From: Spartobacteria bacterium
Lineage (GTDB): Bacteria; Verrucomicrobiota; Verrucomicrobiia; Chthoniobacterales; UBA10450
NCBI GenBank assembly: GCA_003167555.1
Contig: PMSN01000022.1
Location: 1-64,000, forward strand
Length of the DNA: 64,000 nt
Reading direction: 5' to 3'
Below are positions 28,704 through 32,566 of the stretch, piece by piece. The notes below the pieces were generated by a model that saw only the letters and a program-made list of their open reading frames with translations, made no database searches and was not told the origin of the DNA. Numbering within the stretch: the stretch's first letter is position 1; each line of letters begins with the position of its first letter. The translations under genes were made by a program, and so were the position numbers.

Positions 28704-29579
28704 TCATCGGCCCGCAGCCTTTTCGCATCGCTCGACCAGCCGGGGCGCTTCCATCCGCTTCGCCCACGCGGCGAACGCCGGCGTCGCACCGCGCCAGCGC
28801 AGCGTCTCGACTTTCTTAAAGAGCGGCGCGTCGGTGCGCAGCGTCGCGAGCTTCTTGAAGAGCAGCGCGAGATCGCACTGTTTGCCGAGAACGTCCGGCG
28901 GGAAGTTTTCGATCGGACCGTGGCGGTTCAAAAGGTGGGCGGCGGTCTTGGCCCCGATTCCCGGGATGCCGGGGTAGCCGTCGGCCGCATCGCCCACGAG
29001 CGCGAGCACGTCCGGGATGAGCGGCGGATCGACGCCGAATTTTTCGCGGATCGCGGCGGCATCGCGAATGATTTTGCGCCGGCCGTCGATCTGCACCACG
29101 CGCGTATCCCGCACGCATTGCGCCAGATCCTTGTCGGGCGTCCAGATGGCGACTTTCTCCACCTTCTTGTCCTTCGACGCGATATGCGCGGCCGAAGCGA
29201 GCGCATCATCGGCTTCGAGCTCGATCATCGGCCACACGACAACGCCCATCGCCGCGAGCGCCTCCTCGAGCGGACGGAACTGCGCGAGCAGCGCGCGCTC
29301 GATGCCGGCCCCGGTCTTGTAGCCTGCCCAAAGCCGATTGCGAAACGACTCGATCACGTGGTCGGTGGCGACGCCGAGGTACGTGTCGCGGTTCTCGATC
29401 ATCTGGAGCACCGTTTGGAGCACGCCGACAACGGCGCCGTAAGGACGGTCTACGCCTTTGTTAAACCGGCGCAGGCCGTAGAAATGACGGAAGAGCTCGT
29501 AAGTGCCGTCGACGAGGTGAACGATCCGCGTAAAAGGCTTCGCCTGACGTGGCTGATTGGTGGGCCGTTGGAACATCAT
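28704..29579 (-). CDS. 5'-3' exonuclease (PolA N-terminal/FEN-like)
   Basis: A stand-alone 5' nuclease of the flap-endonuclease family, 291 residues. IVHLVDGTYELFRHFYG opens the nuclease fold, IELEADDALASAAHIASKDK and WTPDKDLAQCV carry the metal-binding acidic residues, and LVGDAADGYPGIPGIGAKTAAH is the H3TH DNA-binding motif. It likely removes RNA primers or flaps. The first ~20 residues (MMFQRPTNQPRQAKPFTR) lie partly in a hairpin repeat (29526-29552), so the natural start may have been displaced; no closer ATG exists before IVHLVDG. A long open frame on the plus strand here is a shadow. Confidence 0.9.
   Translation of the reverse strand: MMFQRPTNQPRQAKPFTRIVHLVDGTYELFRHFYGLRRFNKGVDRPYGAVVGVLQTVLQMIENRDTYLGVATDHVIESFRNRLWAGYKTGAGIERALLAQFRPLEEALAAMGVVVWPMIELEADDALASAAHIASKDKKVEKVAIWTPDKDLAQCVRDTRVVQIDGRRKIIRDAAAIREKFGVDPPLIPDVLALVGDAADGYPGIPGIGAKTAAHLLNRHGPIENFPPDVLGKQCDLALLFKKLATLRTDAPLFKKVETLRWRGATPAFAAWAKRMEAPRLVERCEKAAGR
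29526..29552. repeat. 27-bp hairpin repeat (ccgcgt...acgcgg family), in a coding start
   Basis: The sequence begins ccgcgtaaaaggcttcgcct and ends gacgtgg. Outer arms ccgcgt/acgtgg (one mismatch) and inner arms aggc/gcct form a hairpin. It is a copy of the repeats at 30774, 30885 and 30921, in the opposite orientation to them, and here encodes PRQAKPFTR near the N-terminus of the exonuclease. Confidence 0.75.
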
Positions 29580-29639: not shown

Positions 29640-29834
29640 GTGAGCACCCGCGAGTTAATCGAGAAAGAGATCGCCACCTTGCCTGAAAGTTTGCAGCGCA
29701 AGGTTTATGATTTCGCGCTGCGTCTAAAGAAGAGCCGAGGCGATGAATCGTTCAACGGTGCAGGATTGAGCGAATCTGTCCTTGCCCGTGATTGGAACTC
29801 CCCAGAAGAGGATGCCGCGTGGGCAAACCTGTAG
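29640..29834 (+). CDS. Small antitoxin-like protein (DUF2281 type)
   Basis: A 64-residue protein starting at a GTG (STRELIEKEIATLPESLQRK, VYDFALRLKKSRG, then an acidic ARDWNSPEEDAAWANL). The helical EIATLPESLQ-VYDFALRLK pattern is that of DUF2281-type antitoxins. It overlaps the start of a MazF/PemK toxin gene by 16 bases, the usual arrangement. No ATG is available nearby, so the start is approximate. Confidence 0.75.
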   Translation: MSTRELIEKEIATLPESLQRKVYDFALRLKKSRGDESFNGAGLSESVLARDWNSPEEDAAWANL

Positions 29835-30148
29835 TTGGCGAAGTCGTCGTCATTCCGTTCCCACAAACGGACTTGAAGGCGGGAAAACGCAGGCCCGCTT
29901 TAGTGCTTGTCGATCTTCCGGGCGACGATGTGATTCTTTGCCAGATCACGAGCCGCGCGAGATCGGATGAATCATCAGTCGCATTGGACGCTGCCGATTT
30001 CGAGCGTGGAAAGCTCAATCAGCCAAGTTTTACTCGTCCGCAGCGGCTCTTTACCGTCGAGCAACACGTCATTCTTTATACGGCTGGGAAAATACGAGCG
30101 ACGAAACTGACTGAGGTCTTGACCAAAGCGCGTGCGCTTTTCAAGTAA
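29819..30148 (+). CDS. MazF/PemK-family endoribonuclease toxin
   Basis: A 109-residue toxin that would cleave RNA. GEVVVIPFPQTDLKAGKRRP is the MazF-type beta-hairpin with the K-R-P segment, PALVLVDLPGDDVILCQITS continues the SH3-like barrel, and FTVEQHVILYTAGKI is the conserved C-terminal part. The GTG at 29819 is chosen because it starts just before the first strand; an ATG upstream at 29792 lies inside the antitoxin gene. It forms a pair with the preceding small gene. Confidence 0.88.
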   Translation: MGKPVVGEVVVIPFPQTDLKAGKRRPALVLVDLPGDDVILCQITSRARSDESSVALDAADFERGKLNQPSFTRPQRLFTVEQHVILYTAGKIRATKLTEVLTKARALFK

Positions 30149-30178: not shown

Positions 30179-30439
30179 TCAGCGCAACAATTTCTCGGGG
30201 AAGTGCGCGTTCTGTTCACGTTGCAGAATACGACGCTGACGCCAGCGCAACATCGGGCCCGGATTCGTCGGATCCCAGCCTTTCGGATTCGGCAGGACCG
30301 CTGCCAGCATGGCCGACTGCTCCCGTGTAAGACCGCGCGCGCTGACGCCGAAATAATGCTGCGACGCTGCTTCGACCCCGTAGATCCCGCGCCCCATCTC
30401 GATCACGTTTGCGTAGAGCTCGAGGATGCGCCGCTTCGG
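30179..30439 (-). pseudogene. C-terminal fragment of monofunctional transglycosylase MtgA
   Basis: The frame encodes [40 protein letters not shown] and [20 protein letters not shown], the last ~85 residues of a glycosyltransferase-51 peptidoglycan polymerase. The middle of the domain, including the catalytic Glu region and the TITQQ-type segment, is absent. On its 5' side the homology ends exactly at a hairpin repeat (30440-30483), followed by a GIY-YIG gene. The remaining fragment cannot be active. Confidence 0.85.
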
Positions 30440-30483
30440 CCGCGTAAAAACGCCCACGGCGTCTACGCCGCTGTGCGACGCGG
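30440..30483. repeat. Long hairpin repeat at the right border of the GIY-YIG insertion
   Basis: The outer arms ccgcgt and acgcgg match those of the 27-bp repeats, but the interior is longer and holds a second hairpin (cggcgtctacgccg). It overlaps the last ~7 codons of the GIY-YIG gene and marks the point where mtgA homology starts on the other side. Confidence 0.7.
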
Positions 30484-30750
30484 TCGAGCAAGCGGTTCTC
30501 GCAAGAGATAGTGTCTGAGTTGTGCTCTGAGAAATCGTCTGCCTGATCCACTCTTAAGATACCTTTCGCGCCCTAAAGCGTCTTCCTGGTTCAAGTAAGC
30601 CTCGTAATAGACAAGCTTCCATGGGCCGCGGTGAGACGTAGCAAAGCTCTCGCCGTTTTGATGCTGCCTCAACCGCGCGCGCAGGTTGGTTGAGAAGCCA
30701 ATGTAGAAACCGGAGTCGCTCTCCGACCGCAACACGTACACATAGAACAC
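30463..30750 (-). CDS. Small GIY-YIG nuclease (YhbQ/UvrC-type), inserted in mtgA
   Basis: A 95-residue single-domain GIY-YIG protein. [20 protein letters not shown] contains the two GIY/YIG strands, [13 protein letters not shown] the catalytic Arg helix, and [17 protein letters not shown] the conserved Glu. Such free-standing domains are numerous in soil and candidate-phylum genomes and mostly uncharacterised. It is the only complete gene between the two mtgA fragments and is bracketed by hairpin repeats (30774-30800 before its start, 30440-30483 over its end). This suggests a mobile unit of about 360 bp. That it moves itself, or the repeats, is inference. Confidence 0.88.
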
Positions 30751-30773
30751 GCTCTGAGGGTAGAGTGATCAGA

Positions 30774-30800
30774 CCGCGTGAAGCGAAGCTTTTTACGCGG
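30774..30800. repeat. 27-bp hairpin repeat at the left border of the GIY-YIG insertion
   Basis: It begins ccgcgtgaagcgaagct and ends tttacgcgg, with outer arms ccgcgt/acgcgg and an inner pair agc/gct. It lies 23 bases upstream of the GIY-YIG start codon and exactly where the mtgA N-terminal frame (IPAMQVAVVRFR) stops looking like MtgA. Confidence 0.8.
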
Positions 30801-30973
30801 AATCGCACCACCGCCACCTGCATCGCCGGGATCAGGAGCAAAACCACCAGCGCGACCAGTATCCATTTCCACCGCCTCCGACGACCGCGTGAGGCCGCAC
30901 CTTTTACGCGGTTCCCGCGACCGCGTGAGGCGAAGCCTTTTACGCGGCGTTTCTTGGGATTCAGCCTGGGCAT
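30801..30973 (-). pseudogene. N-terminal fragment of mtgA
   Basis: From the ATG at 30973 the frame reads MPRLNPKKRR, a basic stretch, then WKWILVALVVLLLIPAMQVA and VVRF. This is a short cytoplasmic tail and a single membrane span ending in the Q-x-x-V-V-R-F segment common in MtgA. The basic stretch contains two tandem hairpin repeats encoding RVKGFASRG and RVKGAASRG. After VRFR the frame enters another repeat (RVKSFASRG) and then non-homologous sequence. Together with 30179-30439 it shows an mtgA gene with its catalytic centre lost. Confidence 0.7.
30885..30947. repeat. Two tandem 27-bp hairpin repeats inside the mtgA remnant
   Basis: Copies at 30885-30911 and 30921-30947, both starting ccgcgtgaggc and ending cttttacgcgg, nine bases apart. 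Each forms a hairpin with ccgcgt/acgcgg arms. On the minus strand they code in frame for RVKGAASRG and RVKGFASRG. Confidence 0.82.
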
Positions 30974-31273: not shown

Positions 31274-32566
31274 ATGTCTGACCTAGTCTTCAGTACGTAC
31301 AACGATTTGTATGCAGCGCGCTCTATCGGCCGCTTGCTTGTCGAGCCGACAGTTCATTTTGTTCGTGTAATGCGCCTTTTTCCCCCCGAAGGCAGACTTG
31401 CATTGTTGAAAGACGCCTACGCATTCTCTAAGCAATTCTATCAAACAGATTTTTCTTTAGAGCAGTTTGTTGCATTCGCATTATTTGCCTGGGATCCACA
31501 TTGGCCGGTCGAAAATGCGATCAGCGCAGAAACGCCAAGTGAGGTACAATTAGACAGGCTTACCCGAGAACAAAAGTACCTGGTTCGCATCGCAGCGTCA
31601 GCACAAAGCGAAGGTCTTGTCGCGGAAGTCTTAACACGGACGTCGGCTAATGACGCCAGATCAACAGAATCCGAGGTACTTCGAGTCATTGCCGAATCGC
31701 TCGGCGGGCGGATTGAGGATGCGGCTCTCGCTGCCGCGGTCGCTCAATGCCTACTTTTTAACCGCAGATTGATTCGAAGCTACCAGGATGAAACGGCGGA
31801 ACTAGTCGGATTTGCAGCGTCCATACCGGAGGATGAGTTCGACACGCACGGCACCTACAAACGGGCCCCGCTCGATAGCCTGTTTCACGACGAATTGCCT
31901 GACCTGTCCGATATAGAATTCGATCGGGCCGAGTTCGAAAGCTTGACTCGTGACGTATCAAGCTTGGTTGAAGCGGAGTCCCTCCTGTTCGCCGGAGAAT
32001 TCAACCGGGAACTTTCAGATGATCTCGCACTCGGTGATAAGTTTGGATTCGTCGAATCGCCATCAGGCCTTTTTGTGCCTAGCCACGCCCGCAAAATGAT
32101 CTCGACACAATTTGCCGACCTAATCAATCGCGCGTCGGAAGACAAGGCTCACCTATTGACGCTCTCCCCGCGAGGGTTTGAAGAATTCATGGCTAGTCTG
32201 TTCCAGCGCTTGGGATATGATGTCGAACTGACGAAAAGTACGCGTGACGGCGGCGTCGATCTGATCTGTTTGCATTCCGTGCACGGTATCCCCTTTCGTC
32301 TGGCGGTCGAAGTCAAACGTTATAAAGAGGACCGGCCGATTACTGTGGAGATGGTTCGTTCCTTCGTAGGAGCGAACAAGCAATTCGAAGCCGACAAGCT
32401 CGTATACGTGACAACTTCGTCCTACACGGCGCCCGCGATGTCATTTGCCGACAATTATGCATCACAACTGTTGCACCTGAAAGATTATGAACAGATCAAA
32501 GAATGGTGTACGGAAGCCCAGACCCAGTCATGGCTTTTGTTGCCGAATAGTGGAACCCGACGATGA
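31274..32566 (+). CDS. Mrr-like restriction endonuclease
   Basis: A 430-residue protein. The N-terminal ~290 residues are a helical region I do not recognise. The C-terminal domain is a PD-(D/E)xK nuclease of the Mrr_cat type: LSPRGFEEFMASLFQRLGYD, STRDGGVDLI (catalytic Asp), LAVEVKRYKEDRPI (ExK), VRSFVGANKQFEADK and VTTSSYTAPA. Mrr-type enzymes cut modified or foreign DNA; no methylase lies beside it, in keeping with a modification-dependent role. The ATG follows ~210 bp of gene-free sequence (31061-31273) in which I see no clear signal. Confidence 0.85.
   Translation: MSDLVFSTYNDLYAARSIGRLLVEPTVHFVRVMRLFPPEGRLALLKDAYAFSKQFYQTDFSLEQFVAFALFAWDPHWPVENAISAETPSEVQLDRLTREQKYLVRIAASAQSEGLVAEVLTRTSANDARSTESEVLRVIAESLGGRIEDAALAAAVAQCLLFNRRLIRSYQDETAELVGFAASIPEDEFDTHGTYKRAPLDSLFHDELPDLSDIEFDRAEFESLTRDVSSLVEAESLLFAGEFNRELSDDLALGDKFGFVESPSGLFVPSHARKMISTQFADLINRASEDKAHLLTLSPRGFEEFMASLFQRLGYDVELTKSTRDGGVDLICLHSVHGIPFRLAVEVKRYKEDRPITVEMVRSFVGANKQFEADKLVYVTTSSYTAPAMSFADNYASQLLHLKDYEQIKEWCTEAQTQSWLLLPNSGTRR

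Follow-up and report, generated by a model that had tools for sequence, protein, structure and literature searches.

Short palindromes, often arranged as inverted pairs, characterize the REP/REPIN sequences, which exceed about 100 copies per genome and are associated with a RAYT enzyme (TnpA_REP, an HUH Y1 transposase) whose low-copy gene is flanked by the same palindromes. Rickettsia palindromic elements are also short palindromes and are inserted in frame inside genes, and they are not known to encode an enzyme. The GIY-YIG fold is a classic fold of homing nucleases such as I-TevI, I-BmoI, and the Seg proteins, and is also found in the small UPF0213/COG2827 proteins, which are regarded as cellular proteins whose role is unknown. 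GIY-YIG proteins are also encoded by insertions in the rRNA genes of CPR bacteria; these insertions do not match group I or group II introns, and the authors of that report place them outside homing (PMC11270868, 2024).

Here we describe a segment within a 64,000-nucleotide stretch of contig PMSN01000022.1 from a Spartobacteria bacterium (hereafter the window; genome G000, 4.2 Mb). This segment of about 360 bp is probably a minimal, autonomous mobile element. A single GIY-YIG gene lies between a hairpin end and a second, inverted hairpin end, from which it takes its stop codon, and the nuclease would act on the ends of its own element.

Structure of the Element at the mtgA Locus

A first-pass annotation of the window had placed a 95-residue GIY-YIG gene between N- and C-terminal fragments of mtgA. 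Pfam matches (PF01541 for the nuclease, PF00912 for the mtgA remnant) and alignment with the intact mtgA of the sister genome G021 bear this out. The same alignment was used to set the junctions, which lie at 30440 and 30799 and give the element the length of about 360 bp originally proposed. Exactly 339 bp of mtgA are gone and a 360-bp segment stands in their place; the event was thus a replacement rather than a clean insertion, as had been suggested, with a loss of 113 codons instead of the roughly 130 first estimated. The mtgA gene is also intact in G022 and G055. The features of the locus are as follows.

30440–30799, reverse strand: whole class-A element, 360 bp, replacing 339 bp of mtgA (junctions from intact G021 mtgA)
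30774–30800, reverse strand: hairpin CCGCGTAAAAAGCTTCGCTTCACGCGG, left end (copy search, DNA fold)
30463–30750, reverse strand: GIY-YIG nuclease gene, 95 aa (Pfam PF01541, invariant columns, dN/dS about 0.1–0.2, AlphaFold)
30440–30470, reverse strand: degenerate hairpin, right end, inverted relative to the left end and containing the GIY-YIG stop codon (fold, junctions)
30885–30911, forward strand: solo hairpin in the mtgA N-terminal coding part (copy search)
30921–30947, forward strand: second solo hairpin in the mtgA N-terminal coding part (copy search)
29526–29552, reverse strand: solo hairpin in the exo N-terminus (copy search)
30800–30973, reverse strand: N-terminal mtgA remnant (aligned to intact MtgA of G021)
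30179–30439, reverse strand: C-terminal mtgA remnant (PF00912, from profile position 103)
28704–29579, reverse strand: exo (5'-3' exonuclease) gene with a solo hairpin; its G028 orthologue is hit by an element

Hairpins had been claimed at both borders. The left one has a well-formed DNA fold (z -2.8); at the right border (about 30440–30470) the outer arm is kept with one mismatch and the fold is weak (z -1.5). The further copies reported in the mtgA N-terminus and in exo were all recovered. By chance the window would be expected to hold no 27-bp hairpin (0 in 100 shuffles). Genome G000 has five copies of the class-A hairpin, and the only one outside the window (C26:124322) is located at the 3' end of an apparent tRNA gene.

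The gap between mtgA and exo also contains a MazF/PemK-type toxin gene (29792–30148; PF02452) preceded by a probable antitoxin gene (pair at 29640–30148), which was not seen in the corresponding G021 interval. A gene for an Mrr-type restriction endonuclease (31274–32566) adjoins the locus.

The GIY-YIG Protein

The PF01541 domain (E 2e-15) spans residues 1–70 of the 95-aa window protein. The sole other Pfam match is T5orf172, itself a GIY-YIG-like domain, and the Pfam search returned no NUMOD-type or other additional DNA-binding domain; an NCBIfam search gave no informative family. Catalytic residues in invariant family columns are retained (Y3, Y5, Y16, G18, R26, H30, and E62). The AlphaFold model (pLDDT 88.5) has UPF0213 and Slx1 as its closest folds, and 1zg2 and 1ywl are among the nearest structures. 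The dN/dS of the gene is 0.02–0.39, mostly around 0.1, which shows that it is under purifying selection. Searches of phage, plasmid, and viral-contig sequences did not recover this GIY-YIG clade.

Mobility of the Class-A Element

The comparison covered 83 genomes of the family, along with related GIY-YIG genes. The hairpin core is present in 41 of the 83, and a control pattern is almost absent. A check proposed at the outset was whether hairpin copy number follows the presence of the GIY-YIG clade, and it does: genomes with the clade gene average 1.64 copies compared to 0.57 for those without (p 0.0003). The clade gene and hairpin co-occur in 17 of 22 gene carriers; hairpins without the gene, whose abundance was named at the outset as counting against the link, are found in 24 of 61 gene-less genomes (Fisher p 0.003 for the difference). 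The latter could be remnants, or the genes could have been missed in incomplete bins. A clade gene is found within 1.5 kb of 24 of the 71 hairpins, compared to an expectation of about 0.02. The initial description, a REP-like element that encodes a GIY-YIG nuclease for itself, is supported by the borders and the copy-number trend. Class-A hairpins occur at one to five copies per genome and are therefore not high-copy in the manner of REPs.

The gene recurs as a unit with its left hairpin and the inverted right one at unrelated sites, including mtgA, the mtgA–exo gap, exo, integron integrase genes (intI), tRNA 3' ends, and two nearby positions in another gene. Even at the locus described here the position of the GIY-YIG gene varies, being inside mtgA in G000, in the mtgA–exo gap in G021, and inside exo in G028, where about 135 codons are missing. 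Genome G069 (L272), from a different genus than G000, has a GIY-YIG insertion in mtgA whose left site is the same and whose right junction differs slightly. The stop codon of the gene is furnished by the right hairpin in many class-A copies. The 27-bp hairpins also occur alone as in-frame insertions; exo of G021 contains one at a site that is empty in G000. Compensatory changes in the hairpin arms (20 cells) exceed the shuffled mean of 5.5 (maximum 15 in 1000 shuffles). Class-A hairpins were found as well in Opitutae, Rubritalea, and Akkermansiaceae.

These comparisons show that ends and gene travel jointly among unrelated sites and that ends also move alone, and mobility of the element is strongly supported. 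Against the mobile-element reading, class-A copies are few, and some genomes have hairpins but no gene. Class-A insertions, including the window copy, also usually delete part of their target, and such replacement is not predicted by simple transposition.

End Classes of Other Small GIY-YIG Elements

The same genomes contain further GIY-YIG clades whose ends differ from those of class A, being terminal inverted repeats that match perfectly, duplicated tRNA ends, or the GTCATCCTGAGCGAAG palindrome. When end class is mapped on a tree of 83 proteins (84 columns), it changes 9 times, which is the lowest number possible, compared to a shuffled mean of 53.6; about 16 of the end-class labels were set by hand from the flanks. 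Each GIY-YIG clade is thus shown to have its own end sequence. In class B the inverted repeats are TTCACCCCGTGAGATA...TATCTCACGGGGTRAA, full elements are mostly 273–288 bp long, and end-only copies measure 60–63 bp. Classes C and D have palindromes upstream of the gene. In class E the gene is directly behind tRNA-Pro, -Val, or -Lys (L131, L139, L143, L146, L153, L159, and others), and in most cases is accompanied by a GGTCGCCGCGGCGACC-like palindrome and then a 29–31-bp copy of the 3' end of that tRNA. The inverted repeats of class F are GTCATCCYGAGCGAAG, and its end-only copies of 76–165 bp (L254–L267) have ends that match a GIY-YIG element of the same genus. End-only short derivatives are known in two classes, B and F. 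As in insertion sequences with MITEs, these two classes have both inverted repeats at their termini and derivatives that are non-autonomous.

Class-F palindromes number 89, 128, and 60 in G000, G020, and G023, respectively, where the class-F gene is present, compared to only 6–10 in five genomes of the same genus. The gene is absent from three of these (G021, G024, and G026), and G025 has only a distant one. The fifth, G022, encodes a class-F relative with variant ends and has few palindromes, which confounds the genus test and makes the association of gene and palindrome imperfect.

Insertion Targets

Classes A and B were found in the intI genes of more than 30 genomes, many of which share ancestry, so that independent events are fewer than genomes. 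Hosts include L008, L067, L070, L084, L087, L102, L114, and many of L167–L215, and every insertion scored, as mapped on intact integron integrase, is in the sense orientation. Class B occupies four or more intI positions, one of them an identical codon in four genomes, and intact orthologues provide clean empty sites with no target duplication and a loss of at most about 1–2 nt. Class A in intI usually removes 108–227 integrase residues.

Among more distant relatives, inverted-repeat ends scored above the 99th percentile of shuffles at 38 of 76 loci. Many of the 38 are from Patescibacteria, with one or two each from Planctomycetes (including a Scalindua planctomycete) and Betaproteobacteria. 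In Patescibacteria, one element is inside 23S rRNA (L236) and three are at RNase P RNA (L217, L228, and L240). In Rfam searches, the ends and inserts matched nothing except RNAs of the host (tRNA, tmRNA, rRNA, and RNase P RNA) and a single sRNA below threshold, and there was no intron or ribozyme match in the family-class loci or distant relatives scanned. By inspection, the class-A hairpin lacks the attC cores GTTRRRY and RYYYAAC, and some Patescibacteria ends (CCCCGTTAGA..TCTAACGGGG) partly resemble them.

Proposed Mechanism and Alternative Explanations

We infer, from sequence comparisons, that the ends would be processed by the nuclease itself. It may recognize the palindromes at the ends of its own element, perhaps when these form single-stranded or extruded hairpins, and nick or cut both there and at the target, after which host repair would finish the insertion. 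Insertions are clean in class B, cost part of the target in class A, and duplicate a tRNA end in class E, and such varied outcomes suggest that insertion is completed by repair and not by a fixed strand-transfer reaction. A sense orientation downstream of host transcription would allow the promoter-poor GIY-YIG gene to be expressed, and the recurrent targets (intI, tRNA 3' ends, RNA stem-loops) may be conserved loci that are dispensable or tolerant. A point against this mechanism is that a 95-residue protein with no accessory DNA-binding domain would have to recognize and cleave DNA alone or with host factors.

The main rival is homing of an intron-less nuclease gene, in which empty alleles of intI, tRNA genes, or mtgA are cut, the gene is copied in by double-strand-break repair, and the palindromic ends are passengers or regulators. 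It would account for the fold of the enzyme, for the mtgA site common to G069 and G000, and for intI as a conserved, dispersed, and dispensable target. Homing may also contribute to the spread of these elements, because one intI site is common to four genomes. As the whole explanation it is unlikely: ends are conserved where sites share no homology, solo hairpins and end-only copies move in the absence of the gene, the ends differ from clade to clade, and the small protein has no NUMOD-type domain. The hairpin ends also recall IS200/IS605 and attC substrates, and with so many copies housed in intI genes, another recombinase (e.g., an HUH transposase or the integron integrase) could move the element in trans, leaving the GIY-YIG gene as cargo or repair helper. 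We consider this improbable, as end type tracks the GIY-YIG clade and the nuclease residues are intact and under selection.

An intron-like element removed from transcripts would explain the sense-only orientation of all scored intI insertions and the RNA-gene sites, among them 23S rRNA and RNase P RNA in Patescibacteria, and the inverted repeats do pair exactly at the borders. Such RNA-level removal is nevertheless very improbable, given inserts that match no Rfam intron or ribozyme, that at about 280–360 bp are shorter than the known self-splicing introns that carry a gene, and that in class A delete target codons, so that removal would leave the gene unrestored. The window by itself has one copy, in a pseudogene, and could be taken for a decaying locus in which unrelated hairpins and a resident GIY-YIG gene coincide. 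This is hardly credible for a pattern repeated in many genomes, and we rejected it on the clustering of hairpins near clade genes reported above (24 vs. about 0.02).

Beyond the window, we lean slightly toward a general form of the mobile-element reading, in which small GIY-YIG proteins are widespread transposase-like enzymes with clade-matched palindromic ends that move 280–360-bp elements and their short derivatives. They would then explain orphan palindromes such as GTCATCCTGAGCGAAG, and two classes would specialize on intI across phyla.

Comparison With Known Systems

This kind of tiny mobile element is apparently undescribed, a provisional assessment limited to the open-access literature. 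Searches of that literature found no GIY-YIG element with matched ends, PMC11270868 being the nearest report, and the term "inverted repeat" occurs nowhere in a 2006 survey of the superfamily (PMC1564403). If our reading is correct, some of the smallest autonomous mobile elements found are driven by a nuclease family known chiefly for roles in homing, restriction, and repair. Environmental genomes commonly contain palindromic repeats that lack an explanation, and these would gain a candidate enzyme. Integron integrases are frequently judged inactive (43–46%; PMC3108266), and GIY-YIG elements may account for part of this inactivation.

The elements resemble REP/RAYT systems in their short, often inverted palindromes and in the low-copy single-enzyme gene flanked by them. 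Class F, with 60–128 palindromes where its gene is present, comes near REP abundance and reaches about 90–130 in some genomes, while class A has at most five in G000 and its relatives. Unlike REP/RAYT, the partner enzyme is a GIY-YIG protein (PF01541) and not an HUH Y1 transposase, insertions are inside genes, and an end supplies the stop codon. The elements differ from insertion sequences in that GIY-YIG is their only enzyme, with no DDE, HUH, serine, or tyrosine transposase. Rickettsia palindromic elements share the in-frame short palindromes, but the elements described here encode an enzyme.

With GIY-YIG homing endonucleases they share the catalytic fold, its conserved residues, and recurrent insertion in conserved genes, and they differ in having no intron or NUMOD domain and in having conserved palindromic ends and end-only derivatives. 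The loci scanned have no Rfam intron fold, unlike group I and group II introns. UPF0213/COG2827 proteins are among the closest solved structures, yet here the gene forms the body of a mobile element. The CPR insertions (PMC11270868) are paralleled by L236, a GIY-YIG insertion in rRNA; that report covers rRNA sites only, and the words "inverted" and "hairpin" are absent from it, whereas the present analysis also describes targets in protein genes, the ends of the elements, their short derivatives, and empty sites.
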